A stretch of DNA of 64,000 nt, taken from NCBI GenBank assembly GCA_020162035.1, contig JAIUNM010000019.1:1-64000 (forward strand), given 5' to 3'. The notes under the pieces are model-generated. The model was not told the origin of the DNA. It searched no databases and saw nothing but the letters and a program-made list of their open reading frames with translations. Every line of letters starts with the position of its first letter. Positions within the stretch are counted from its first letter, which is position 1. Made by a program: the position numbers and the translations under genes. The stretch is from Bacteroidota bacterium. Its GTDB lineage: Bacteria > Bacteroidota > Bacteroidia > B-17B0 > Aurantibacillaceae. This document shows positions 3,021 to 61,380 of this stretch, piece by piece.

Positions 3021-4481
3021 TTAAGTTTTGTTTTTTAAATATTTATTTAAAAAATTAATATTAGGCAAATGTGCTTCTTGAATTCGTTTGGCATATTTAA
3101 TTGAATCTAAAATTTCTTTTTGGTGTTCTTCTATTTTTATTTTTTGATTTTCAACTTCTTTTTTTTGTATAGAAATTACATTATTTGCATTTCGTTGTTT
3201 TTTTAACCCTCTAAAAATAAATAGTAATAAAATTAAACTAATAAATAAACCTATAACTACAAAAATGGTAATTGATTTTTGCAATTTTAAACCTGATTCT
3301 TTTAAAAGGTTTTCTTTTTGTAATAGTTTATTTAATTGTTCTTTTTTTTCATTGTTGTATTTAGCTTCTAAATCATTTAATTGAGCAAGATTTATATTAT
3401 TAACTAAACTATCTTTTAATTTCATATGTTTTTGCAGATAAATTACTGAAGACTTATAATCGCCAAATTTAAAATATGACTGATACATTAAGAAATAAAT
3501 ACCTTTTAAAGCATCTATATCGTTTAAATCATTTGCAATTTTAAGACTTTTATTAAAATATCTTTCAGCATTATTTTTATCATTTAATTCTGAATACAAA
3601 TTTCCTAAATTAAGGTAAGATTCTGATAAGCTATTTTTATCGTCAATAGTTTCTGCTAAAGAAACAGAAATTAAAAAATGCTTTAGTGCCAACTTATGAT
3701 TTCCGAATTGAAGATATGTTGCCGCTAAATTACCATTTGCTTTAGTTTTCCAATCAATATAATTTTTATCTGTTGCCAAGTTAATAGCTTTATTTAAAAT
3801 TGATATGGCTTTTTCATATTTATCAGTTTTTGCATACATGCCTCCTAAGTTAATGTATGATGCAATTAAGCTGTAATAATTAATTTTAGATTGTTTTTCA
3901 ATTAATTCAATTGCTTTTAAGTTATATTCAATGCATTTATTAAAATTTTCTAACCTACCATAAACATTAGCTAAACCAATTAAAATATCTGCTGCTCTGT
4001 CATTAAGTTTATGAGTTTCGCACACTTCTAATGCCTCAAATAAATCTTTTAATGCCATTTTTAAATCACCCGAAAAAACATACATTACTGCTCTAAAATA
4101 TTTATTTGCTGCAAAACCTTCATAATAATTTACTTTTTTATAATAAGGCTCTGCAATAGTGTAATATTTAATTGCGTTATTAAAATCTTGTTTTTTTTGA
4201 TAAGACATTCCTATTATCATATTTGAAATTCCTATTGAGGAGTCTGATTTAAATTTAACAGATAATTGAAGGCAATAGTTTGCGTACTTATATAAAGTAT
4301 CTGGATTTAAATTATGATGATTTTGAATATAGGCTTTTAAATACTTAAATTTTAAATATTCGGAAGAAGTATTTCTATATAAATTTAATAAGGAATCATT
4401 GTAAGAATTAGAGTATATATTTTTTATTGAAAAAGTAAAGAAAAAAAATATATATACTAATTTCAAACTAATTGCTTTCAT
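3021..4481 (-). CDS. TPR sensor protein lacking a phosphatase domain
   Basis: A 486-residue protein with an N-terminal signal segment (about 1-25), roughly eight TPR-like helical pairs (about 55-350), a coiled-coil stretch, one transmembrane helix near 400-420 and a second coiled coil. It ends with ILDSIKYAKRIQEAHLPN and a short tail. That is the linker which, in the neighbouring genes, leads straight into a SpoIIE/PP2C phosphatase. Here a stop follows and no phosphatase remnant lies in the next 150 bases. It is therefore a clean sensor-plus-linker protein: either a truncated paralogue or an adaptor that could pair with the full-length phosphatases through the coiled coil. It is last in the minus-strand cluster. 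Confidence 0.8.
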   Translation of the reverse strand: MKAISLKLVYIFFFFTFSIKNIYSNSYNDSLLNLYRNTSSEYLKFKYLKAYIQNHHNLNPDTLYKYANYCLQLSVKFKSDSSIGISNMIIGMSYQKKQDFNNAIKYYTIAEPYYKKVNYYEGFAANKYFRAVMYVFSGDLKMALKDLFEALEVCETHKLNDRAADILIGLANVYGRLENFNKCIEYNLKAIELIEKQSKINYYSLIASYINLGGMYAKTDKYEKAISILNKAINLATDKNYIDWKTKANGNLAATYLQFGNHKLALKHFLISVSLAETIDDKNSLSESYLNLGNLYSELNDKNNAERYFNKSLKIANDLNDIDALKGIYFLMYQSYFKFGDYKSSVIYLQKHMKLKDSLVNNINLAQLNDLEAKYNNEKKEQLNKLLQKENLLKESGLKLQKSITIFVVIGLFISLILLLFIFRGLKKQRNANNVISIQKKEVENQKIKIEEHQKEILDSIKYAKRIQEAHLPNINFLNKYLKNKT

Positions 4482-4558: not shown

Positions 4559-5311
4559 TTAAAAACGAATTCCAACAATACACACATCATCAACTTGTTC
4601 TAAATCACCTTTCCAATTTTTAAAATTAGTTTCTAATTCTTGTTTTTGTTCGCTTAAAGTTTTATTTGAAATAGAAAGCAACAATTCATTTAATGGTTTG
4701 TATTTAAATTTTTTACCTTTTGGTCCACCAAATTGATCGGCATAGCCGTCTGTATATAAATATAAGATATCTCCTTGCTTTACTTGTAGTTTATGGCAAG
4801 TAAAATTTTCTTTTCTTTCGCCAATACCAACAGGCATTTTATCTTTTTGTAATTCTATTAACTCATTATTTGAAATTAAAATTGGTGCGTTATGCGCTGC
4901 TGTATAAGTAATTTCTTTTGTTGATTGATTGAAGCGTACTATAATTCCATCAAAGCCATCTTTTTGCCCTTCTTTACTAACGCTTGACATTAGCCTTTCT
5001 CGAACATATTCAAAAATTAAATTTGTTTCTAAGAAATTTTTCTCATTTATAGCTTCGGTTAAAAAACCAATATTTAATAAACTCATAAATGCGCCAGGCA
5101 CGCCATGACCAGTACTGTCGCAAACGGCTAAATAAAAATTGTCTCCATGTTTAGTTGCCCAATAAAAATCGCCACTAACAATATCCTTTGGATTAAAATA
5201 AACAAAATTATTAGGAATGTTTTCATTTAAAAAATCATGATGTGCTAATAATGTGTTTTGAATGCGTTTGGCATAATGTATTGAATCTAATATTTCTTTT
5301 TGTTTTTCTTC
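4559..5311 (-). repeat. copy 1 of the ~755-bp phosphatase repeat
   Basis: This covers the 3' end of the propeller gene, from the linker to the stop codon. By eye it is almost the same DNA as four other copies at 7655, 9708, 11904 and 13972. It shares an exact 119-base run (5067-5185) with the copy at 7655 (8163-8281). Confidence 0.9.
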
Positions 5312-7621
5312 GAGTTCAGCTTTTTTGTTTGATATTTCAATTGTTCTTAAGTTCACAAGAGATTCTAATTCTTTTTGTTTAACAATATATTTTTTCTCTC
5401 TATATTTAATAATAGCTTTGGTAGCAAAAATTAATAGAGTTATGCTTGAAATAATAAACCACCAAGTTTTATAAAATGGGGGGGAAATTTTAAATGAATA
5501 TTTTGTTGTATCAGAATAAATTGTTTTATCAAGAACTGCCTTTACTTCAAAGGTATAATCACCAGGTTGTAATTTATGAAATGTTACTTCGTTAATAGAA
5601 TTTTGTTTTGTAAAAACAGAATCTAAGCCTATTAGTCTATAAACATATTTAATATTTTTTCTATTATAAAGTTGAGTGCTATGGAAATTGAATTTAAATT
5701 TGTTTTCGTAAAACTTAAATACTTTTTCGTTGTTAAGTTTAATGTCGTTAACTTTTATTTCATCTAAAACAACTGTAAGATTGTTTTTTCTTTTAATAAC
5801 ATCTTGCTCATCAAATTTCCATAAATAATTGTTAGTACCTACAAAAATTTTATTATTTACTTCCAAAATACTTGAATTTAAGCAATCTCCATCAAACCCT
5901 ATTTCATTAGAAATTATTTCCATTTTACCTGAAGCTAATTTTAATTTCGCTATACTACCTGGCATGCCAACCCACAAATAGTTATCTTTATCAACTAATA
6001 TTGAATTAATGATGTTTGAGGGCAATCCATTAAGTGTATTTATAATTTTAATTTTATTAGATTTAACGCTAATAATTCCACCACCGTTAGTCCCTGCAAT
6101 TATATTTCCATTTTTATCTTCAGTAATACAATTAACAATATTTATAGGCATACCATTTTCTGTTGAATATCTTTGCCATTTACCATTAGAGTAATTAACT
6201 AACCCAGCGCCTGAAGATGCAAACCACAAATTTCCTTTTGAGTCTTTAAAGCAAGAATAAAAATACTTAATACTAGCAATTGTTGAATCATTTATGTTTT
6301 TAAACTCTTTACCATCATACTTAACAATTCCGCAACCCCATCCAATAAAATAAATATTGTTTTCATTATCAATTACAGCATTTCTTACACCTGTGTAATT
6401 ATGCTTTTTAATTGTTTTTTGTGTTTTATCATCAATTTGAATTAATTCTTTATCAGTTGCAACAAAAACATTGTTATTATATTTAAAAATATTTATGGCA
6501 GAACCTTTAAAATTATTAATGTAATTTTTTTTAAAATAATTATTTTCTTCGAAAAACACCCCACTTGCTGATGTTACAACCAACTTGTTATTTATAGAAT
6601 TTATAGAGTAAATCATTCTATCTTGTAAGCCATTTTTTTCATTGTATTTTGTCCAACCATTAAAATAAATATTAGCAACACCTTCGCCCCAATTAGAAAT
6701 CCAAATATTATTTTCTTTATCTGCAAAAACTCTAAATGCAGTAGATACTTTTAAACCATTATTTGTTCGAATAGTTTTAAGTACTTTATTTTCTTTAGTA
6801 TTATAAACTACAACGCTTGCATCTTGAGATCCAATAATTAATACATCGTTTAAAGGTTCGGCAAAACTAAACAAATAATACTTTGGTAGTTGATCATTAT
6901 TAATTTTAACTGCTGCTTTATTTCCTTTAGAAATTAAATATAATCCGTTACTTGCTCCTACCCAAGTGTTTTCATTAGAATCGTGAAATGCAGTTAAAAT
7001 TCTTTCATTTGTTAATCCATTAATTTGATTAAACGAAAGTAATTTGTTATTGCTTAATTTAAATAAGCCATACTCTGAATCGTAGCCAAACCAAATATTA
7101 CCTTGCTTATCTTCATTTACAAAAACTACTGCATACTCTGGCAATTTATACTTTTTAGAAATGTTTTCGATTGTAGAATCTGAATTTATTTTAATTAATC
7201 CTTTTTCAGTTCCTGCCCATATATTTTTTTTAGAATCAACAATTACTTGAAAAATTTCTTTAGCAGCTAATTTTGTGTGAATTTTTAAAACAGTATCGTT
7301 TTTTAACAAAAACAATCCTCCGCCAATTGTTCCAATTATAAATTCATTTTTATTAAGTTCGGCAACACTTCGGGTAACTAAATTCAATAAACCATTTTGC
7401 AATCCATAATTTTTAAAAGTTTCACCGTCAAATTTAGAAATGCCACCGCCATAAGTCGAAAACCATAAATTTGATTCTTTATCTTGGTATATATCTGCAA
7501 CCATAGAATGGGGCAATCCATCTTTTAAGCTATAGTATTTTATTGGATATTCTTGTGCAGTTATTAAAATACTTTTAATAATAAAACATATAAATAAATA
7601 ATATTTAAAGTTTATAATCAT
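4559..7621 (-). CDS. beta-propeller sensor / SpoIIE-type PP2C phosphatase
   Basis: A 1020-residue membrane sensor phosphatase. A signal peptide (about 1-22) precedes two-component-regulator propeller repeats with recurring NLWFSTYGGG, NIWAGT and NIWFGY motifs (about 30-600). A Y_Y_Y domain follows (about 615-700), then a transmembrane helix near 713-738, a coiled coil and the ILDSIHYAKRIQ linker. The PP2C domain (about 785-1020) keeps its acidic metal ligands: SGDFYWA, CDSTGHGVPGAF, DGFDG, YTDGYADQFGG and QVDDV. The propeller probably reads a periplasmic signal and the cytoplasmic domain dephosphorylates Ser/Thr on a partner protein. It is the only propeller member of the tandem five. Signal and substrate are unknown. 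Confidence 0.9.
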   Translation of the reverse strand: MIINFKYYLFICFIIKSILITAQEYPIKYYSLKDGLPHSMVADIYQDKESNLWFSTYGGGISKFDGETFKNYGLQNGLLNLVTRSVAELNKNEFIIGTIGGGLFLLKNDTVLKIHTKLAAKEIFQVIVDSKKNIWAGTEKGLIKINSDSTIENISKKYKLPEYAVVFVNEDKQGNIWFGYDSEYGLFKLSNNKLLSFNQINGLTNERILTAFHDSNENTWVGASNGLYLISKGNKAAVKINNDQLPKYYLFSFAEPLNDVLIIGSQDASVVVYNTKENKVLKTIRTNNGLKVSTAFRVFADKENNIWISNWGEGVANIYFNGWTKYNEKNGLQDRMIYSINSINNKLVVTSASGVFFEENNYFKKNYINNFKGSAINIFKYNNNVFVATDKELIQIDDKTQKTIKKHNYTGVRNAVIDNENNIYFIGWGCGIVKYDGKEFKNINDSTIASIKYFYSCFKDSKGNLWFASSGAGLVNYSNGKWQRYSTENGMPINIVNCITEDKNGNIIAGTNGGGIISVKSNKIKIINTLNGLPSNIINSILVDKDNYLWVGMPGSIAKLKLASGKMEIISNEIGFDGDCLNSSILEVNNKIFVGTNNYLWKFDEQDVIKRKNNLTVVLDEIKVNDIKLNNEKVFKFYENKFKFNFHSTQLYNRKNIKYVYRLIGLDSVFTKQNSINEVTFHKLQPGDYTFEVKAVLDKTIYSDTTKYSFKISPPFYKTWWFIISSITLLIFATKAIIKYREKKYIVKQKELESLVNLRTIEISNKKAELEEKQKEILDSIHYAKRIQNTLLAHHDFLNENIPNNFVYFNPKDIVSGDFYWATKHGDNFYLAVCDSTGHGVPGAFMSLLNIGFLTEAINEKNFLETNLIFEYVRERLMSSVSKEGQKDGFDGIIVRFNQSTKEITYTAAHNAPILISNNELIELQKDKMPVGIGERKENFTCHKLQVKQGDILYLYTDGYADQFGGPKGKKFKYKPLNELLLSISNKTLSEQKQELETNFKNWKGDLEQVDDVCIVGIRF

Positions 7622-7654: not shown

Positions 7655-8409
7655 TTAAATTCTAATACCAAATACGCACACATCATCTACTTGTTCTAAA
7701 TCACCTTTCCAATTTTTAAAATTAGTTTCTAATTCTTGTTTTTGTTCACTTAAAGTTTTATTTGAAATAGAAAGCAACAATTCATTTAATGGTTTGTATT
7801 TAAATTTTTTACCTTTTGGTCCACCAAATTGATCGGCGTAGCCATCAGTGTATAAATACAGCATATCTCCTTGTTTTACTTGTAGTTTATGGCAAGTAAA
7901 ATTTTCACTTCTTTCGCCAATACCAACTGGCATTTTATCTTTTTGTAATTCTATTAATTCATTGTTTGAGATTAAAATTGGTGCGTTATGTGCTGCTGTA
8001 TATGTAATTTCTTTTGTTGATTGATTGAAGCGTACTATAATTCCATCAAAGCCATCTTTTTGCCCTTCTTTACTAACACTTGAGATGAGTCTTTCTCGAA
8101 CATATTCAAAAATTAAATTAGTTTCTGTAATGTTTTTTTCATTTATCGCTTCGCTTAAAAAGCCAATATTTAATAAACTCATAAATGCGCCAGGCACGCC
8201 ATGACCAGTACTGTCGCAAACGGCTAAATAAAAATTGTCTCCATGTTTAGTTGCCCAATAAAAATCGCCACTAACAATATCTTTAGGATTAAAATAAACA
8301 AAATTATTTGAAATGTTTTCATTTAAAAAATCATGATTAGCCAATAATGTATTTTGAATGCGTTTAGCATAATGTATTGAATCTAATATTTCTTTTTGGT
8401 GTTCCTCAA
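7655..8409 (-). repeat. copy 2 of the ~755-bp phosphatase repeat
   Basis: The shared phosphatase-coding segment. Bases 7820-8029 match 12069-12278 of copy 4 exactly (210 bases by my reading), while 8163-8281 match copy 1 exactly (119 bases). This mixed relationship is the mark of gene conversion. Confidence 0.9.
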
Positions 8410-9631
8410 TAGTTGCTTTTTGAGACTCAACTTCTTTTTTTTGTTCTATAATAATAAGGTTGGCTTTGTTTTTTTGTTTATATGCTTTGTAAATTATTAC
8501 ACCAGTAAATACTAAAATTAAGCTCAAGATTATGAAAAAATACAAAATTGCTCTTTTCTTTTCAATTTCTTTTATATGTAAACTATTTTCATCATTTAAT
8601 ACTTTAATGCGTAATGATTTTTTTTCAGATTCATATATACTTTCCATTTCAAGAAGTTGGCTTTGCTTATTTGAATTATATATACTATCATTAAGTACAT
8701 GGAACAAATTAAAATAATGGTATGCTGAGTCATATTTTTGCTGATTGTATAATATTTCAGAAAGCAATTTTGCGTTTTTAGATATAAGATCGGGGTAAGA
8801 TTTATTTATGCTTAGCTTTAGTGAATGCCTAACATGTGATTCTGCCTTATTAAAATCTTTTGATTTAATATACATTTCGCCCAAAGAAAATTCATTCCAA
8901 GCAATTCCAATAAAATCATTTAAATTTTTTCTAATTAAATTAGATTTTTCGATGTAATTTAAACCTTCGTTGTATTTATTTTTCATAAAATAAATACCAG
9001 CTATGTTATTCAAACTATATGGAATAGCAACACTATCAGCAATAGATTCCTTTAGTTTTAAAGCATCGAAATAATAATGTAAAGCACTATCCAACTCACC
9101 TTTAAATTCAAAAAGTACACCGTAATTATCTAATGCAGTGGATAAATCACTTAAACTTTTAGTCTCTTTTAAAATTTGAATTGCCTCATACATTACAACT
9201 ATAGAATTATTTAAATTTCTGTTTTTACTTTGATATGCCATTGAAACCATTGCATTTGCTTTTTGCCTTTTATCGTTTGATAATTCAAAAAGTTTTATTG
9301 ATTTTTTATGCAACTCAAAAGACTCATAGAAATTCCCCTTTAAATAGGATACTAGTGCTAATTTTTCTATTAATTCAGCTTGATTTTGATTATTATTCTT
9401 AAATATATTACTTTGATATACTAATTGATAGAGCGAATATGATTTATTCAAATTATTTACAACTTTGTCATAAGGTAAAAGAATAGTTTTTAACGCTACT
9501 TCTTCGTTAATTTCGTTTTTTTGAACTTTAAACAAAAGAGAATCTATTTCATTTGTTTGAGCGTTAATAATGTTTAATATAAAAAAACATATAATTAATA
9601 ATTTTATTTGATGTTGATAATACTTTTTCAA
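7655..9631 (-). CDS. TPR sensor / SpoIIE-type PP2C phosphatase
   Basis: A 658-residue protein: signal peptide ending near INAQ (about 25), TPR repeats (about 80-320), a short coiled coil, a transmembrane helix near 360-382, a second coiled coil, the ILDSIHYAKRIQ linker (about 413) and a PP2C domain with all metal-binding aspartates (SGDFYWA, CDSTGHG, DGFDG, YTDGYAD, QVDDV). The TPR part lies before the membrane helix and so is probably periplasmic; the phosphatase is cytoplasmic. Only 33 bases separate it from the propeller gene downstream, which suggests cotranscription. Its phosphatase DNA is a mosaic, sharing exact stretches with two different sister copies. Confidence 0.9.
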   Translation of the reverse strand: MKKYYQHQIKLLIICFFILNIINAQTNEIDSLLFKVQKNEINEEVALKTILLPYDKVVNNLNKSYSLYQLVYQSNIFKNNNQNQAELIEKLALVSYLKGNFYESFELHKKSIKLFELSNDKRQKANAMVSMAYQSKNRNLNNSIVVMYEAIQILKETKSLSDLSTALDNYGVLFEFKGELDSALHYYFDALKLKESIADSVAIPYSLNNIAGIYFMKNKYNEGLNYIEKSNLIRKNLNDFIGIAWNEFSLGEMYIKSKDFNKAESHVRHSLKLSINKSYPDLISKNAKLLSEILYNQQKYDSAYHYFNLFHVLNDSIYNSNKQSQLLEMESIYESEKKSLRIKVLNDENSLHIKEIEKKRAILYFFIILSLILVFTGVIIYKAYKQKNKANLIIIEQKKEVESQKATIEEHQKEILDSIHYAKRIQNTLLANHDFLNENISNNFVYFNPKDIVSGDFYWATKHGDNFYLAVCDSTGHGVPGAFMSLLNIGFLSEAINEKNITETNLIFEYVRERLISSVSKEGQKDGFDGIIVRFNQSTKEITYTAAHNAPILISNNELIELQKDKMPVGIGERSENFTCHKLQVKQGDMLYLYTDGYADQFGGPKGKKFKYKPLNELLLSISNKTLSEQKQELETNFKNWKGDLEQVDDVCVFGIRI

Positions 9632-9707: not shown

Positions 9708-10461
9708 TTAAATTCTAATACCAATAACACACACATCATCTACTTGTTCTAAATCACCTTTCCAGTTTTTAAAATTATTTTCTAATTCTTGTTTTTGTTT
9801 TTCTAATGAGTTATTTGAAATAGAAAGTAACAATTCGTTTAATGGTTTGTATTTAAATTTTTTACCTTTTGGCCCACCAAATTGGTCTGCATATCCGTCT
9901 GTATATAAATATAACACATCTCCTTGTTTTACTTGTAGTTTATGGCAAGTAAATTTTTCTTTTCTTTCACCTATACCTACTGGCATTTTATCTTTTTGTA
10001 ATTCTATTAACTCATTATTTGAGATTAAAATTGGGGCATTGTGTGCAGCTGTATATGTAATTTCGTTTATTGATTGATTGAAGCGCACTATAATTCCATC
10101 AAAGCCATCTTTTTGCCCTTCTTTGCTAACACTTGAGATAAGCCTTTCTCGAACATATTCAAAAATTAAATTAGTTTCTGTAATATTTTTTTCATTTATT
10201 GCTTCGCTTAAAAATCCTATATTTAATAAACTCATAAAAGCACCCGGTACGCCATGTCCGGTACTATCGCAAACGGCTATATAAAAATTATTACCATGTT
10301 TTGTAGCCCAATAAAAATCACCACTAACAATATCTTTAGGATTAAAATAAATAAAATTATTAGGAATATTTTCGTTCAAAAAATCTTGATGTGCTAATAA
10401 TGTATTTTGAATGCGTTTGGCATAATGTATAGAGTCCAAAATTTCTTTTTGTTTTTCATCA
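9708..10461 (-). repeat. copy 3 of the ~755-bp phosphatase repeat
   Basis: The shared phosphatase-coding segment, here attached to a sensor half of different base composition. It carries somewhat more private substitutions than the other copies, for example near 9790-9815 and 10235-10300. Confidence 0.88.
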
Positions 10462-11855
10462 ACCAATAATTTTTGTTGCTCAACCATACTTTTTTGTTCC
10501 GAAATTAATTTATTAGCCTTCCGTTGCACCCGTAAACCTTTAAAAATAAAAAAGGCCAATCCTGAAGCTAAAATTAGGCCTGTTACCGTAAAATATGAGA
10601 TTGTTTTTTGCTGATCTATAGTTTCTTCCGATAATTTTTTTTGCGAATTTAGCAGTTCAATTTCTCTTTTGTTTTTTTCAACCCGGATTTGTTCCTTTTG
10701 AATCTGTAGTTCTTTCAGTGATTTTTCTTGATTCAGCAATGTGATTTCCTGGTTTTTCTTTTCTTTTTCAATTTTTTCTGCCACCAATTGTAACGATTGG
10801 TCCTTTATTTTCAAATCCTGCAAAGCCCTATCTTTAGTGATCATTTCAATTTGGTGTTCTTTTTTTTCTGTTTCGTATTTCGCCGAAATTTCATTTATTG
10901 CTTTTAATGACTGACCTTTGTACAACGAATCTCTTAGTTTGATGTATTTACTAAAGTACTCACGGGCCGAATCACCTTTATTTAAGTATGTATAATTTAT
11001 GGCTAAATTTGCATAAAAGTTCTCTATTTTATCCATTTCCCTTCTTTCGTATAAAATTTCTGAAGCTTTTTGCAAATATTCATTTGCTTTTTCATATTTC
11101 CCTTCATGTTCATATAAAGCAGCAATGTTTGAGTACAAGTCAGGATTAACAAACTTGATTTTATAACTAATTCTTTCGGCATTTAAATAATATTGCATGG
11201 CACCTGCGTAATTATTCTGATGTCTTTCAATTACTCCCAAATTAGAGTAAAGTAGCGGCAAGGCTTTAATGTCCTTCACTGTATCAACAACTTTTAAAGC
11301 TCCTTCATAATAAAATTTCGAATCTTTGTAATTCTTCATTTTATAATAAATTGCACCAAGATTCATGTATATTCTTAACGGAGATTGACCGCTTCCTGAT
11401 TTATTCCTGAATTCGAGGGCTAATTTATATTCCTTCAATGCTTTTTCATCTAATTGAATTTTTTGATAAATGTTGCCAATGTTGTTATGTGTTTTCGATA
11501 TATTAGCATAATCATTCAACTCTTCCAACAATTTTAAACTTTCCTGATAACTAAACATGGCTTTATCAAAGTTAGGCTTGTTTAAATAAAAGGTACCTAA
11601 TGAATTATAACAATATGCAATATTTTTTTTGTTCTTTAATTGCTTCGCATAACTTAATGATAATTCCCCGTACTCTATGGCTTTATCCGCATTTTTATTT
11701 GAGTAGGTCCATGCCAGTTCGTCGATAATGATGAAAATCTTAGCGCTATCTTTTTCAGTTTTGAGCAAGTTATTGAGCGAGTCTATGACGTGTTTTTGAC
11801 TGTGAACCGAAACAGAACACATAAAAATAAAATACAGAGTTAAAAGTTCTTTCAT
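9708..11855 (-). CDS. TPR sensor / SpoIIE-type PP2C phosphatase with long coiled coil
   Basis: About 715 residues from the ATG at 11855, which gives a clean signal peptide (MKELLTLYFIFMCSVSVHSQ). An ATG at 11876 and a TTG at 11882 in the same frame are alternatives. TPR repeats (about 30-300) are followed by an unusually long charged coiled coil (about 320-425), a transmembrane helix and the common linker and PP2C domain with intact metal ligands. The sensor half has more G+C than its neighbours: five 60-base lines counted by hand give 20-24 G+C, against 15 and 12 in lines 9121 and 13141. The phosphatase half matches its sisters. The sensor was perhaps acquired from elsewhere and joined to a resident phosphatase. 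Confidence 0.88.
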   Translation of the reverse strand: MKELLTLYFIFMCSVSVHSQKHVIDSLNNLLKTEKDSAKIFIIIDELAWTYSNKNADKAIEYGELSLSYAKQLKNKKNIAYCYNSLGTFYLNKPNFDKAMFSYQESLKLLEELNDYANISKTHNNIGNIYQKIQLDEKALKEYKLALEFRNKSGSGQSPLRIYMNLGAIYYKMKNYKDSKFYYEGALKVVDTVKDIKALPLLYSNLGVIERHQNNYAGAMQYYLNAERISYKIKFVNPDLYSNIAALYEHEGKYEKANEYLQKASEILYERREMDKIENFYANLAINYTYLNKGDSAREYFSKYIKLRDSLYKGQSLKAINEISAKYETEKKEHQIEMITKDRALQDLKIKDQSLQLVAEKIEKEKKNQEITLLNQEKSLKELQIQKEQIRVEKNKREIELLNSQKKLSEETIDQQKTISYFTVTGLILASGLAFFIFKGLRVQRKANKLISEQKSMVEQQKLLVDEKQKEILDSIHYAKRIQNTLLAHQDFLNENIPNNFIYFNPKDIVSGDFYWATKHGNNFYIAVCDSTGHGVPGAFMSLLNIGFLSEAINEKNITETNLIFEYVRERLISSVSKEGQKDGFDGIIVRFNQSINEITYTAAHNAPILISNNELIELQKDKMPVGIGERKEKFTCHKLQVKQGDVLYLYTDGYADQFGGPKGKKFKYKPLNELLLSISNNSLEKQKQELENNFKNWKGDLEQVDDVCVIGIRI

Positions 11856-11903
11856 TCTAAAGGAGTACTCATTCATGATCAACTAAGTTACTTTAAATTT
11901 TCA

Positions 11904-12659
11904 TTACAATTTTAATCCAATTATTAATACATCGTCAACTTGTTCTAAATCACCTTTCCAATTTTTAAAATTAGTTTCTAATTCTTGTTTTTGTTCGCTT
12001 AAAGTTTTATTTGATATTGAAAGTAACAATTCATTTAAAGATTTGTATTTAAATTTTTTACCTTTTGATCCACCAAATTGATCGGCGTAGCCATCAGTGT
12101 ATAAATACAGCATATCTCCTTGTTTTACTTGTAGTTTATGGCAAGTAAAATTTTCACTTCTTTCGCCAATACCAACTGGCATTTTATCTTTTTGTAATTC
12201 TATTAATTCATTGTTTGAGATTAAAATTGGTGCGTTATGTGCTGCTGTATATGTAATTTCTTTTGTTGATTGATTGAAACGTACTATAATTCCATCAAAG
12301 CCATCTTTTTGTCCTTCTTTGCTAACGCTTGATATAAGCCTTTCTCGAACGTATTCAAAAATTAAATTAGTTTCTGTAATGTTTTTTTCATTTATCGCTT
12401 CGCTTAAAAAGCCAATATTTAATAAACTCATAAATGCGCCTGGTACACCATGGCCGGTACTATCACACACTGCTAAATAAAAATTACTACCATGTTTAGT
12501 TGCCCAATAAAAATCTCCACTTACTATATCTTTCGGGTTAAAGTAAACAAAATTATTAGGTATATTATCGTTCAAAAAATCATGATGTGCTAGTAATGTG
12601 TTTTGAATGCGTTTAGCATAATGTATAGAGTCCAAAATTTCTTTTTGGTGTTCTTCTAT
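11904..12659 (-). repeat. copy 4 of the ~755-bp phosphatase repeat
   Basis: The shared phosphatase-coding segment. It is identical to copy 2 over 210 bases (12069-12278) but close to copy 5 in the region around 12430-12600, another sign of patchwork exchange. Confidence 0.9.
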
Positions 12660-13964
12660 TTTATTTTTTTGTTTTTCAACTTTAGTATTTGTTAGCTGTA
12701 ATTCTAAATTTAATTTTTTTCTTTTGCTACTAATACGAAATATATTAACTGTCAATAAAGTTACTATTCCAAAAACAAAAATCGAAACATAAATAATCAT
12801 TTGTTTTTGCTTATTTGTTTTATTTAATTCGAGTATTTCAGTTTCTTTTCTTGAAATATCATATTTACTTTGCAATTCAGCAACAATTGAAGTTAATTCA
12901 GTTTTATAAAGCGAATCACTAATAATTGAAGCTTTTTTAAAATATTTTATTGCTGAATCAGGTTTATTACAACTTTCAAATATGCCTGATAATATTTTAT
13001 ATAAATTAATTGATGAAAAAGATTCATTTTTGTTATTTAGATATTTAGAAATAGAGTCGCAATAACTTAATGCTAACGTATTATTTTTTTCAATATTTGC
13101 AATTGATGCTAAAACCATATAAATAATTGATTTTACAGACGAGTTTTTTAATTTAATTGAATAGATTAAACTTTCGTTTGCATACTTATATGCTTTTTTA
13201 TAATCATGTTTTTCTAAATAAATTTGTGCTATATCAGCGCTAGAATGCATGGCATTATTTATATCATTGATTTTTAGAGCAACATCATATGCCTTAAATT
13301 TATAAAAATGATTAGAATCTTTATTATTAACATAAGTTGTACTTAAACCATCATAAGAATAAATTAATGAACTATAATCTTTCGTTTTTTGCGCGTAATT
13401 TAACCCTTTTCTAAAGTAATACCTTGATTTTTCATGCATTTTTAACGCAGAAAAAATGTATCCTATATTATTTAAACTAATATTTTCTCCCTCAGTAAAA
13501 CCAAAATTCTTTTCTCTTCTTCCTCCTTCTAAATAAAAATCTAACGCTTTTTTTGATTCTCCTTTATGATAATAAATTGAAGCTATATTGTTTAAATTTT
13601 TACATTCCGATAAACTATCTTTTACTTCAACAGCTTTAGCTAAAGATTTATTAAAGTAAATTAGAGCAGAATCAATTTCGTTTGTATAATAAAAAATAAT
13701 TCCTCTATTGCGTAAAGCTATTACATATGGGTTTTTTCCAACATAATTTATATCTGAATTTTTAATTACATAATTGTAGTAAAATAACGATTTATTAATA
13801 TCTCCAGTTGTTTTATAAACCTCAAATATCAACTTTGAGGCTATCATTTCTTTATTAAATTTGTTTTGTTCAATAAGAAAAACTTTTTCTAAACTATCTA
13901 AATTTTGAGCATTAAATTTTAAACTTAATCCTGTTATTAATATATAAAAAAGTAATTTTTTCAT
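11904..13964 (-). CDS. TPR sensor / SpoIIE-type PP2C phosphatase
   Basis: About 686 residues. I place the start at the ATG at 13964, giving a good signal peptide (MKKLLFYILITGLSLKFNAQ). The frame is open further upstream but would run into the gene before it. TPR repeats (about 50-350) are followed by a transmembrane helix near 390-410, a coiled coil, the ILDSIHYAKRIQ linker and a PP2C domain with complete acidic motifs. The extreme C-terminus (VDDVLIIGLKL) differs from the sisters. Only seven bases separate it from the preceding stop, so it is almost certainly cotranscribed with that gene. Role as for its sisters: a membrane-anchored phosphatase under TPR control. Confidence 0.89.
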   Translation of the reverse strand: MKKLLFYILITGLSLKFNAQNLDSLEKVFLIEQNKFNKEMIASKLIFEVYKTTGDINKSLFYYNYVIKNSDINYVGKNPYVIALRNRGIIFYYTNEIDSALIYFNKSLAKAVEVKDSLSECKNLNNIASIYYHKGESKKALDFYLEGGRREKNFGFTEGENISLNNIGYIFSALKMHEKSRYYFRKGLNYAQKTKDYSSLIYSYDGLSTTYVNNKDSNHFYKFKAYDVALKINDINNAMHSSADIAQIYLEKHDYKKAYKYANESLIYSIKLKNSSVKSIIYMVLASIANIEKNNTLALSYCDSISKYLNNKNESFSSINLYKILSGIFESCNKPDSAIKYFKKASIISDSLYKTELTSIVAELQSKYDISRKETEILELNKTNKQKQMIIYVSIFVFGIVTLLTVNIFRISSKRKKLNLELQLTNTKVEKQKNKIEEHQKEILDSIHYAKRIQNTLLAHHDFLNDNIPNNFVYFNPKDIVSGDFYWATKHGSNFYLAVCDSTGHGVPGAFMSLLNIGFLSEAINEKNITETNLIFEYVRERLISSVSKEGQKDGFDGIIVRFNQSTKEITYTAAHNAPILISNNELIELQKDKMPVGIGERSENFTCHKLQVKQGDMLYLYTDGYADQFGGSKGKKFKYKSLNELLLSISNKTLSEQKQELETNFKNWKGDLEQVDDVLIIGLKL

Positions 13965-13971
13965 GCTTAAA

Positions 13972-14725
13972 TTAAATTCTAATACCAATAACACACACAT
14001 CATCTACTTGTTCTAAATCACCTTTCCAATTTTTAAAATTAGTTTCTAATTCTTGTTTTTGTTCGCTTAAAGTTTTATTTGATATTGAAAGTAAGAGTTC
14101 GTTTAATGGTTTGTATTTAAATTTTTTACCTTTTGGTCCACCAAATTGATCGGCGTAGCCATCAGTGTATAAATATAACACATCGCCTTGCTTTACTTGT
14201 AGTTTATGGCAAGTAAAATTTTCTCTTCTTTCACCTATACCTACTGGCATTTTATCTTTTTGAAGTTCTATTAACTCATTATTTGAAATTAAAATTGGCG
14301 CATTGTGTGCAGCTGTATATGTAATTTCTTTTGTTGATTGATTGAAGCGTACTATAATTCCATCAAAGCCATCTTTTTGTCCTTCTTTGCTAACGCTTGA
14401 CATTAACCTTTCTCGAACATATTCAAATATTAAATTAGTTTCTGTAATATTTTTTTCGTTTATCGCTTCGGTTAAAAAACCAATATTTAACAAACTCATA
14501 AATGCGCCTGGTACACCATGCCCAGTACTATCACACACTGCTAAATAAAAATTATTGCCATGTTTAGTTGCCCAATAAAAATCTCCACTTACAATATCTT
14601 TTGGATTAAAATAAACAAAATTATTAGGTATATTATCGTTCAAAAAATCATGATGAGCTAATAATGTGTTTTGAATACGTTTAGCATAATGTATGGAATC
14701 TAATATTTCTTTTTGTTTTTCTTCA
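13972..14725 (-). repeat. copy 5 of the ~755-bp phosphatase repeat
   Basis: The shared phosphatase-coding segment at the upstream end of the array. Close to copy 4 around the GHG-encoding region, but with its own differences elsewhere. Confidence 0.88.
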
Positions 14726-16068
14726 ATTAAACTATTTTTTTGCTCAACATCTATTTTTTGTTGTGTAATTACTTCGTTTGCTTTTTGTTTTTGCCTGTAT
14801 CCTTTTACTATAAATAGTAACATTATAAACATTAAGCTAAACCCAATTATAAGACCATTACGTTGAGTTTTATGTTTTTCCATTACAATTTGTTGAATAG
14901 AATTATCTTTCTGCAAAAGTTCAATATCTTTTTGTTTTTTTTCATTTGCATATTTTGCGTCAGCTTCAGCAATTTGCTCTGTTAATTTTAAATTAAATAA
15001 TGAATCTTTAAGCTTTACATGTTTTTTGTAAAACAATAAAGAGTTTTCAAAATCTGATATTTTTTCATAATATTTTGATTTTTGTAAAAGATAACGCATT
15101 TGATAATCAAATAAATTTGTCTCATTTAGTATATAACCTAAAGAATCGTTATATCGCTTGGCTAAAGCAATTTTGTTTGTTTCAAATAACACATTTGCTA
15201 TTTTGTAATACGATGTAGCAAACGTTTCTTTTTCACAATTGTATTTTCTTTCAATCTCTAATGCGTGATTGTAATATGATAGTGATTCATCAAATTTTTT
15301 TTCTTTTAAAAGCAAATCTCCTAAACTGTTGTATGATTCTAAGGTACCGTAATAATCTTTATTTTTTAATTTTAACTGTAGTGATTTTTCATATAAACCT
15401 TTAGCTTTTTCAGTTTGACCTAGATTTTCATAAGAATTTGCTAGGTTTGAAATTACCCAAGAAACATACGGGCTGTTAATTCTTGAAAAAGCATCAAGTG
15501 ATTTTTCATAATATTCAATTGCTTTTTTATGGTTTTTTAAATTCTCAAAAACATTACCAATACCCATTGATGCAGCACCTATTCCATGATCGATTTTTAA
15601 AGAATCAAAAATTCGTAAAGAACTAATGTAACATTTTAAAGCTTTATCTGAATTTCCTATAATATCATAAGCATTGCCTAATGAAGAGTATATAGATGCC
15701 GCGCCTTTATAATCTTTTAATTTTTCTTTTAATTTTTTAGCTTCATTTAAATAAAATAAAGAAGAGTCTTTTGAATTTGTGCTGTGTAATTGCCCTAAAC
15801 AACTGTAAGCTTCAGCAGTTCCTCTCTCGAAATTAAGTTGTTTACTAAGAGAAAGGGTTTTGTATGCATAATTAAAACTCTCATCTATATTAAGATGAGA
15901 AGTAACATCTGAAATTTTAGCATAAACAATAATTTTAGTGGTATCGTTTATGTTTGTTTTAAGTAAATTTTTAAGAGAATCTATACTTTGGCTAAAAACC
16001 GTTTGGCAAAAAATAAAACCTATTATAATTAATTTCTGTTTTAATTTAAATATGTTAATTCTCTCCAA
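13972..16068 (-). CDS. TPR sensor / SpoIIE-type PP2C phosphatase
   Basis: A 698-residue protein: signal segment (about 1-27, ending VFSQ), about seven TPR units (about 55-330), a coiled coil, a transmembrane helix near 395-415, a second coiled coil, the linker near 450 and a complete PP2C domain (SGDFYWA, CDSTGHG, DGFDG, YTDGYAD, QVDDV). It is the first phosphatase of the tandem set and begins 15 bases after the paaZ-like gene, so it may share that transcript. The TPR part resembles the Rap-like peptide-sensor layout common in Bacteroidota, but no ligand can be inferred. Confidence 0.89.
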   Translation of the reverse strand: MERINIFKLKQKLIIIGFIFCQTVFSQSIDSLKNLLKTNINDTTKIIVYAKISDVTSHLNIDESFNYAYKTLSLSKQLNFERGTAEAYSCLGQLHSTNSKDSSLFYLNEAKKLKEKLKDYKGAASIYSSLGNAYDIIGNSDKALKCYISSLRIFDSLKIDHGIGAASMGIGNVFENLKNHKKAIEYYEKSLDAFSRINSPYVSWVISNLANSYENLGQTEKAKGLYEKSLQLKLKNKDYYGTLESYNSLGDLLLKEKKFDESLSYYNHALEIERKYNCEKETFATSYYKIANVLFETNKIALAKRYNDSLGYILNETNLFDYQMRYLLQKSKYYEKISDFENSLLFYKKHVKLKDSLFNLKLTEQIAEADAKYANEKKQKDIELLQKDNSIQQIVMEKHKTQRNGLIIGFSLMFIMLLFIVKGYRQKQKANEVITQQKIDVEQKNSLIEEKQKEILDSIHYAKRIQNTLLAHHDFLNDNIPNNFVYFNPKDIVSGDFYWATKHGNNFYLAVCDSTGHGVPGAFMSLLNIGFLTEAINEKNITETNLIFEYVRERLMSSVSKEGQKDGFDGIIVRFNQSTKEITYTAAHNAPILISNNELIELQKDKMPVGIGERRENFTCHKLQVKQGDVLYLYTDGYADQFGGPKGKKFKYKPLNELLLSISNKTLSEQKQELETNFKNWKGDLEQVDDVCVIGIRI

Positions 16069-60090: not shown

Positions 60091-61380
60091 TTATTTTACA
60101 CTGTTAATTTTTGCTTTTATAAACTTTGTACTAGGCAAAACAGCGTTTTGAATACGTTTAGCATAACGAATGCTTGAAACTATTTCGTTTTGCTTTTCTT
60201 CAATTAAATCTTTTTGTTTTTGAATAATTTTAAATTTATTAAATAGAATAAAAGAAAAAAGTATTATAATACTTAAAATTGAAAGTATTGCATAAATAAT
60301 AATTCTATTTATTTTTTGCTTTTCTTCATGATCTTTTTTTTGTTTCTCTTTTTCAGCCTTATGTAATAATTCTTTTTTAAGAATTTCAAATTTCATTTCG
60401 TTTTGATTTATCTCTTTTAAAACTTCAGAATTCGTTAAACTATCTCTATAAGAAATAAAAAGTTTATAATAAGCATATGCTTTGTCGTACATTTTACGTC
60501 TTTCATAATGGTTAGCTAAAGAGCTGTAGGCATCTCTAAAAGCATCAGGAAAATTTATTTCTTTAGCTTTATTTAAACCTAAAAATAAATTTTTTTCAGC
60601 TTTATCAAACATATATAAACTAGAATAAGCTGTTCCAATATTTAAATGTGAATAAACTATTCCGAAATTATCATTCAATTTAAATTGAGAATCAATAGCT
60701 TCATTAAAATAACTTAAAGCTTCTTCAAATTTATTTAACTCTAAACAAACACTACCTAAATTATTTTTAGCACTCGCTATACCTGTTAATCTATTTGCTG
60801 CTTTATAATGCTTTAAAGCTTGTAAATAATATCCTTTTGCTTTTTCTAATTCTTTCTTTTTATAAAATACATTTCCAATGTTTGAATAAAAATTACCAAG
60901 GTTAATTTTTTCTTTGCTTTCATTTACAACCTTAATAGCTTTAAAATAATAATTCAACGATTTATTAAATTCGTTTTGTGTAAAATAAACAACACCAATA
61001 TTACTATTTATACTAACAATTTGTTTAGTGTATTTTAAATCTTCAGCAATTTTTAATGCATTTAAGTACAAGTTTAGAGAAACTGAATAGTTTCCTTTTA
61101 ATTCGTTTAAATATGCATTTAACGCGAAACAGACAAGTTGTTTAAATTTTATGTGTGTTTTTACTTTTAAATTAATCAAATCATTTAATAACGAGTCGGC
61201 TTTATTTAAATTTCCATCATAAATTGTAAGTCCAATTAATTTTTCAAATTTAGAAATTTTCACAGAGTCATTTTTTATACTATAAATAGTTTTTAAAATA
61301 GAATCTCTATTTTGTGCATTTAATTTAAAGCATAATACAATAAAAAAAATGCAAATATAATATGACCTGAATTTTAACAA
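60091..61380 (-). CDS. TPR sensor protein lacking a phosphatase domain
   Basis: 429 residues: signal peptide (about 1-22, FKLNAQ), TPR repeats (about 60-310), coiled coil, a transmembrane helix near 355-378, another coiled coil, and the linker IVSSIRYAKRIQNAVLPS, which in other proteins of the window leads into PP2C. It then stops after 15 residues. It is thus a second sensor-only relative, more distant from the tandem five than the protein at 3021. The region to its 3' side (60059-60090) has no trace of a phosphatase. It could pair with a phosphatase encoded elsewhere. Confidence 0.82.
   Translation of the reverse strand: MLKFRSYYICIFFIVLCFKLNAQNRDSILKTIYSIKNDSVKISKFEKLIGLTIYDGNLNKADSLLNDLINLKVKTHIKFKQLVCFALNAYLNELKGNYSVSLNLYLNALKIAEDLKYTKQIVSINSNIGVVYFTQNEFNKSLNYYFKAIKVVNESKEKINLGNFYSNIGNVFYKKKELEKAKGYYLQALKHYKAANRLTGIASAKNNLGSVCLELNKFEEALSYFNEAIDSQFKLNDNFGIVYSHLNIGTAYSSLYMFDKAEKNLFLGLNKAKEINFPDAFRDAYSSLANHYERRKMYDKAYAYYKLFISYRDSLTNSEVLKEINQNEMKFEILKKELLHKAEKEKQKKDHEEKQKINRIIIYAILSILSIIILFSFILFNKFKIIQKQKDLIEEKQNEIVSSIRYAKRIQNAVLPSTKFIKAKINSVK

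Follow-up and report, generated by a model that had tools for sequence, protein, structure and literature searches.

The DNA examined here, a stretch of 64,000 nucleotides from a member of the Bacteroidota (assembly GCA_020162035.1, contig JAIUNM010000019.1, positions 1 to 64,000; referred to as the window), raises the question of how five neighbouring genes came to join dissimilar sensors to nearly the same phosphatase, and of why the sensor-coding part of one of them, g3, differs in base composition from its own phosphatase half. An earlier note on this DNA had proposed that the g3 sensor was obtained from another genome and spliced onto a resident output domain.

Layout of the phosphatase array

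The genome to which the window belongs (contig C19) is assembled into 31 contigs, comprises 3.17 Mb and has a completeness value of 99.98. Five genes, g1 to g5, are arranged head to tail on the minus strand between positions 4559 and 16068; three of the spacers between them measure 33, 76 and 21 bases, and one pair of genes overlaps (Table 1). Profile searches detected a C-terminal SpoIIE phosphatase domain (PF07228) in each of the five proteins, with matches that extend over the whole domain (E-values from 5.5e-21 to 5.3e-22, 75.8 to 79.1 bits, cut-off 25). The motifs GDFYW, DSTGHGVPG, TDGYADQFGG and QVDDV, which we take to be metal-binding acidic, catalytic-type motifs, are intact in all five. 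The N-terminal parts consist of TPR repeats in four of the proteins and of a propeller with a Y_Y_Y domain in the remaining one, g1. All share an architecture of sensor, one transmembrane helix, helical linker and phosphatase; judging from the N-terminal hydrophobic stretch and the position of the transmembrane helix, the sensors are probably periplasmic. The predicted structure of g3, taken as a basis for its architecture only, is confident in the TPR region (pLDDT 79 to 96 for residues 31 to 290) and of low confidence outside it (mean 66, pTM 0.42, five-row alignment).

Table 1. Positions of the array genes, the segments of g3 and associated features within the window
Feature	Position	Strand	Description
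Sensor-only gene	3021..4481	minus	directly downstream of g1; TPR, hydrophobic segment, same linker motif, no phosphatase
g1	4559..7621	minus	propeller/Y_Y_Y sensor and SpoIIE phosphatase; phosphatase half 4559-5299
g2	7655..9631	minus	TPR sensor and SpoIIE phosphatase; phosphatase half 7655-8395
Longest shared tract, g2 side	7778..8005	minus	27 consecutive silent polymorphic codons identical
g3	9708-11882	minus	whole gene
g3 phosphatase half	9708..10448	minus	SpoIIE/PPM phosphatase; GC3 0.16; 88-90% DNA identity to the four sisters
g3 linker	10449..10517	minus	cytoplasmic linker up to the KEILDSIHYAKRIQ motif; GC3 native again (0.17)
g3 sensor, codons 1-455	10518..11882	minus	foreign composition, GC3 0.32; N-terminal hydrophobic stretch, TPR repeats, long helix, one transmembrane helix
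g4	11904..14003	minus	TPR sensor and SpoIIE phosphatase; phosphatase half 11904-12644
Longest shared tract, g4 side	12027..12254	minus
g5	13972..16068	minus	TPR sensor and SpoIIE phosphatase, start codon uncertain; phosphatase half 13972-14712

A compositional step in the linker of g3

The line counts on which the earlier note was founded are all exact (21, 20, 23, 21 and 24 G+C per 60 bases in the g3 sensor, 15 and 12 in sister sensors). Total GC, at 0.309 in the g3 sensor, 0.283 in its own phosphatase half and 0.223 to 0.258 in the sister sensors, changes too shallowly to serve as a measure and was replaced by GC3. By this measure, the g3 sensor (150/478 codons, 0.31) differs clearly from the phosphatase half (40/246, 0.16; Fisher p 7.9e-6), whereas the same comparison in the four sisters yields p values of 0.84, 0.6, 0.12 and 1, with sister sensors at a GC3 of 0.13 to 0.18. 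Profiling of GC3 and codon usage bears out a real step near position 10462, where the note had seen it: a change-point scan places the drop, from 0.321 to 0.163, at codon 455 (window position 10517, 55 bases away), and thus within the linker. The log-likelihood gain is 10.9 in the scan and 11.5 when the full frame is taken; of the 505 open reading frames of this genome that were scanned, none gains more, although the runner-up is close, at 10.6 (L027 5440-6432). Since native GC3 (0.17) is already reached in the terminal part of the linker, codons 456-478, the scar lies between the transmembrane helix and the conserved KEILDSIHYAKRIQ motif.

Across 528 reading frames from 824 kb of this genome, window included, GC3 has a median of 0.174 and a 99th percentile of 0.320. 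The g3 value is the highest among the sensors of the 33 SpoIIE genes found in the genome, the next being 0.209, in a survey in which one gene lacks a measurable sensor part and several were measured from the first methionine onward. Codon usage gives the same picture. Under the best foreign table the g3 sensor gains 0.117 nats per codon, and only three of 344 other own reading frames of at least 300 amino acids gain more, all of them in one segment of contig C2 (L058). Among the codon tables of the 34 relatives with sampled sequence, 31 fit the g3 sensor better than that of its own genome, and the five best have a GC3 of 0.28 to 0.36. For the sensors of g1, g4 and g5 and for the phosphatase half of g3, the own table is the best of those tried, while the tables of two congeners fit the g2 sensor slightly better than the own one. 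G-ending codons account for 0.246 of the fourfold sites in the g3 sensor and for 0.070 in the genome. Expression-driven codon bias was rejected as the cause, because the phosphatase half of the same reading frame is native in codon usage; GC-biased conversion was rejected as well, the converted half being the AT-rich one.

In codon usage, the g3 sensor departs from the genome about as far as does a putative mobile island located elsewhere in it. This island (L058, C2:1-20000) holds five reading frames with a GC3 of 0.31 to 0.37, a transposase-like frame and genes of copper/heavy-metal type, named by eye; besides the g3 sensor, it is the clearest foreign segment in the sampled part of the genome.

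The step in g3 is more than chance. A GC3 contrast between sensor and phosphatase beyond a |z| of 3 was found in five of 124 genes tested (two sets, 96 and 28), and only in g3 is the sensor the richer part. Two of the reverse cases, L218 5426-7606 in G017 (z -4.4) and L227 6315-8489 in G012 (z -3.2), are further candidates for exchanged halves.

Relatives of the sensors

When the closest homologues of the g3 sensor were collected, the best match lay in another genus. Among 39 congeners the best matches reach 32% identity over residues 57-368, or 29% over residues 62-475 with 117 bits; among 87 genomes of the family, its own included, a single strong match stands out, in genome G063, with 38% identity over residues 8-475 and 263 bits, the next match having 129 bits. 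These 87 genomes also constitute the order-level search set; as 18 of up to 213 first-look candidates per genome were scored, further relatives are possible. A profile built from the g3 and G063 sensors and run against 395 genomes of the class, with four candidates scored per genome, gave 198 bits for the best other match (the 880 bits of the G063 sensor follow from its membership in the profile). In a collection of 84,980 species, two short peptide patterns, which could miss relatives, retrieved 24 other loci, the next by E-value at 28% identity, and an additional pattern-based scan of this collection likewise yielded nothing closer than G063. A separate scan of viral contigs found no relative of the g3 sensor, and a phage route was set aside on that ground. 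The codon table of G063 itself ranks 30th of 34 in its fit to the g3 sensor.

The origin of the sensor in another genome is thus favoured by foreign codon usage confined to the sensor and by a closest full-length relative that belongs to another genus; the case is only moderately strong because no high-identity donor was found among the 39 congeners, the 87 family and 395 class genomes and the species collection, where 38% was the best identity. Patchy distribution alone does not set g3 apart, as scattered sensor relatives are common in the family. The g2 sensor has relatives with 65% identity in the same genus (G022) and 51% in another (G074), and that of g5 has relatives with 50% in the same genus (G024), 52% in another (G076) and 37 to 44% in four more congeners. 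With g2 and g5 likewise represented in two genera, it is composition, not distribution, that singles out g3. The best matches of the g4 sensor are at 28 to 30%, and a search limited to E-values of 1e-100 or better returned one match for g1 (34%, in G040).

A protein on contig C20 of the same genome carries a TPR sensor that is 31% identical to that of g3, and it appears histidine kinase-like, with a HATPase_c_2 match just under the cut-off. Such a sensor on a putative kinase would be in line with exchange across output classes.

Homogenisation of the phosphatase halves

The five phosphatase halves each measure 741 bp with the stop codon, are free of insertions and deletions relative to each other, and are 88 to 93% identical in DNA, with differences mostly at third codon positions; the region of similarity extends roughly from the KEILDS motif to the stop codon. 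A Sawyer-type run test over 86 silent polymorphic codons found a longest shared run of 27 codons, as against 9.6 expected (p 0.0002); this tract, shared by g2 and g4, corresponds to bases 390-617 of the half and contains three non-silent differences. A PHI-type statistic fell below all 2000 permutations (p < 1/2000), and 801 of 1431 informative pairs of sites are incompatible and clustered along the sequence. The phosphatases are 91 to 97% identical in protein within the array but 60 to 68% identical to those of the genes that carry relatives of the g2 and g5 sensors; the sensors, in reverse, are 50 to 65% identical to these relatives, and among themselves the array sensors share a median identity of 31%. 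Hence, the five phosphatase halves are a patchwork produced by gene conversion, and the sensors lack such homogenisation. The phosphatase half of g3 does match its sisters, in native GC3 and in DNA identity (88 to 90%), as had been pointed out before; since conversion homogenised all five halves, this match is no sign of a single splicing event.

Strong homogenisation of adjacent phosphatases is not general. A DNA identity of at least 0.88 between phosphatases was found in five of 78 adjacent same-strand pairs (73 plus 5) from 37 regions that were picked by likeness to the phosphatases or sensors of the window rather than at random; the next value is 0.75. Four of these pairs are in the window and one is in G063, so that two of the 37 regions are concerned. 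The g3-type gene of G063 has another SpoIIE gene as its immediate neighbour, and the two phosphatase halves are 94.7% identical in DNA from about 30 bases upstream of the motif onward, while the sensors are 33% identical in protein; GC3 is 0.28 to 0.31 in the sensors and 0.49 to 0.52 in the phosphatases. Because the G063 phosphatase is only 43% identical to that of g3, this arrangement probably arose separately. Both homogenised arrays contain a g3-type sensor, a sample of two of which the second was located through that very sensor.

On contig C11 of the same genome, two SpoIIE genes that flank a third (L031 11349-13586 and 15605-17929) share a stretch of 200 phosphatase codons in which the DNA identity of each 20-codon block is 83 to 100%; the sequence on either side has diverged. 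This conversion-like tract has a GC3 that is, on average, raised (phosphatase halves 0.25 and 0.33), and the sensors are native, the reverse of what is seen in g3.

Conflict between sensor and phosphatase trees

The five phosphatases form one clade, with a support of 99, in trees of 161 and of 43 sequences. In a sensor tree of 39 rows, g2 groups with G022 (98) and with G074 (100), g5 with G024 and G076 (100), and g3 with G063 (99); g4 falls into no supported group, and g1 was left out. AU tests, for groups chosen by sensor likeness after the 43-sequence phosphatase tree was known, reject the corresponding groupings of the phosphatases: p is 4.5e-6 for g3 with G063, whose phosphatase belongs to another lineage, 0.033 for g2 with G022 and 0.008 with G074 added, 0.001 for g5 with G024 and 4e-83 with G076 added, and 0.026 for a further pair from G076 and G074. 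Two of these six results (0.033 and 0.026) are marginal.

The conflict has its limits. Among 72 genes whose sensor has a relative in another genome at 42% identity or more, the phosphatase is closer to a same-genome paralogue in 26 and not so in 46 (two of which have no paralogue to compare), the paralogues being drawn from sampled regions and not from all SpoIIE genes of each genome. Whole genes are inherited among close relatives, and exchange becomes visible at greater distance. Two genes of other genomes, L142 8201-10132 (G058) and L143 9002-11041 (G064), have sensors that are 61% and phosphatases that are 38% identical, an apparent output swap.

Splicing or overwriting

Two histories of similar weight can account for the present form of g3. 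In the first, the sensor segment would have entered from another bacterium and would then have been joined to the resident phosphatase type; in the second, a complete foreign sensor-phosphatase gene would have been inserted, and its phosphatase half would later have been overwritten by the resident type through conversion from the sisters. We give this second course somewhat less than even odds. It draws on the conversion evident among the phosphatase halves, on a foreign composition that begins with the reading frame itself (21 bases past the end of g4, with a GC3 of 0.48 over the first 60 codons) and ends in the linker, and on the number of private differences, which is highest in the g3 half (24, as against 5 to 17 in the others); however, that half is native as a whole (GC3 0.163) without a visible foreign remnant, and conversion would have had to start in a donor phosphatase that was possibly too diverged. 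The earlier proposal holds as far as a foreign sensor is concerned, but its second part, splicing onto a resident output, predicts nothing that a whole foreign gene with an overwritten output would not also show: because conversion acts in the array and the same arrangement surrounds the G063 sensor, the one cannot be told from the other.

Sensor-only genes and a possible cassette system

The sensor-only gene next to g1 stops 18 residues past YAKRIQ, and a second one lies at 60091-61380 on the minus strand of the window. Further proteins of this kind are encoded in L059 and in at least 14 of the loci L084-L156. In loci of the same genome, the tail after the linker motif measures 200 to 300 residues in 18 of 22 reading frames and 9 to 18 in the other four, the nine-residue tail belonging to a short frame in L056; in relatives, it measures 200 to 300 residues in 99 of 128, 17 to 25 in 28, and an intermediate length in one. 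Many of the short tails read LLPSEKYI or similar, and this recurrence suggests that they belong to a genuine class of proteins and are not products of decay. The protein L031 853-2577 resembles the sensor-only proteins and is outside these counts because its motif differs.

We tentatively consider that the array might be a sensor-cassette system. The homogenised halves would flank each sensor as direct repeats, homologous recombination between them could insert, delete or replace sensors, foreign ones included, and conversion would keep one output; sensor-only genes might serve as a reservoir and, in addition, supply regulatory partners that use the common linker to pair with the phosphatases.

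Less likely histories

It is improbable that the g3 sensor is native and that its GC3 was raised by selection or by a local mutation bias. The family does abound in TPR sensors of this type (69 of 87 genomes have matches at an E-value of 1e-15), and the sensor-only paralogue L031 853-2577 of the same genome is 35% identical to g3 over residues 81-475. This paralogue, however, has a GC3 of 0.110, and the native phosphatase half within the same reading frame, the excess of G-ending codons at fourfold sites and the first rank of g3 among 505 reading frames for its GC3 step all speak against a native origin. By eye, this paralogue of native composition has a long coiled coil as well, so that the long coiled coil of g3, to which the earlier note had drawn attention, is not in itself a foreign feature.

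An assembly artefact, in which repeats were mis-joined and sensors wrongly paired with outputs, is very improbable. The assembly is in 31 contigs, and short reads could be misplaced in a segment of about 210 bases (positions 366-575 of the half) where g2 does not differ from g4; mis-joins would nevertheless not produce a foreign codon usage with its end point inside the linker and thus upstream of the repeat, and the same arrangement is present in another assembly, that of G063. Assembly error is hence unlikely to be behind the compositional scar, although it could affect details of the conversion tracts. The explanation with the least to commend it, that the halves were duplicated recently and have been kept alike by purifying selection and not by gene conversion, would suit their low dN/dS (NG86 0.04-0.08 in seven of ten pairs) but not the clustered mosaic of incompatible sites, the long shared silent runs, or sensors whose median identity of 31% means that they were not duplicated at the same time as the phosphatase halves.

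Output and probable partner of the array

The reading that best explains the whole, to which we assign a probability of roughly 0.7, combines diverse sensors, outputs homogenised by conversion, an imported g3 sensor and one shared partner. Five adjacent membrane proteins would thereby connect different sensors, through a transmembrane helix and a coiled-coil linker, to a single type of cytoplasmic SpoIIE/RsbU-type PPM phosphatase, which would probably act on an anti-anti-sigma factor. The search for partners consisted of the models PF01740 and PF13581. The former found one STAS-only reading frame above the cut-off in the genome (C17:11647-11952) and a sub-threshold match in a frame of 540 amino acids; the latter found eight matches, one in a short frame of 136 amino acids (C8:103772-104134) and seven in frames of 318 to 1148 amino acids. 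By these domain matches, the partner-switching components, an anti-anti-sigma protein and an RsbW-like anti-sigma kinase, are present in the genome; the candidates are located on contigs other than that of the array.

According to Baral et al. (PMC12143880), RsbU becomes active through its linkers, which form a coiled coil and thereby dimerise the phosphatases; the authors propose that sensors can be exchanged across outputs. Each array sensor may likewise order its linker and so dimerise the phosphatases; if activation is linker-driven in this manner, a newly arrived sensor could function immediately, provided that its linker is compatible. The uniform outputs would keep all five proteins on one partner. 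This partner is most likely the single STAS-only anti-anti-sigma protein, which the single short RsbW-like kinase would oppose. If the substrate is indeed shared, the likeness of the outputs would be accounted for; the link of the array phosphatases to the STAS protein is our inference. It is likely that several sensors drive one interchangeable phosphatase that acts on one anti-anti-sigma protein.

Relation to known systems and biological meaning

Histidine kinases are known to recombine sensor and output domains by domain shuffling; theirs is a different output family, and the array homogenises its output within itself. A closer likeness is offered by TLR1 and TLR6 of mammals, for which the pertinent study (PMC2077338) describes gene conversion that limits the divergence of tandem receptor paralogues: the output-side region is homogenised, and the sensing ends diverge and follow orthology. 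Unlike the system described there, the array comprises five copies of bacterial PPM phosphatases, its homogenisation starts at the linker motif and leaves out the transmembrane segment, and one copy has a sensor of foreign composition. With the RsbU/SpoIIE-type PPM proteins of PMC12143880, the array shares the C-terminal SpoIIE-type phosphatase (PF07228 here), the N-terminal sensor, a helical linker proposed to carry the signal, and the proposed exchange of sensors. It differs from what is presented there by its TPR or propeller sensors in front of a transmembrane helix, and by exchange that is deduced from DNA composition and tree conflict.

In the open-licence literature, we found no description of a bacterial phosphatase array of this kind. 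The principle is already known, from TLR1/TLR6 and from modular PPM sensors; the bacterial case is a variation on it. To our knowledge, the exchange of bacterial sensors between signalling outputs has so far mostly been inferred from domain architectures. In the array, it is seen as a compositional scar at the linker and as a tree conflict inside one reading frame, and with an output domain kept uniform through conversion, the idea of an exchangeable toolkit for PPM phosphatases becomes directly testable. The presence of 33 phosphatases and of one STAS-only protein found in the same genome suggests that many inputs may feed one switch, and the array points to a possible exchange of entire sensor modules on such a common switch.
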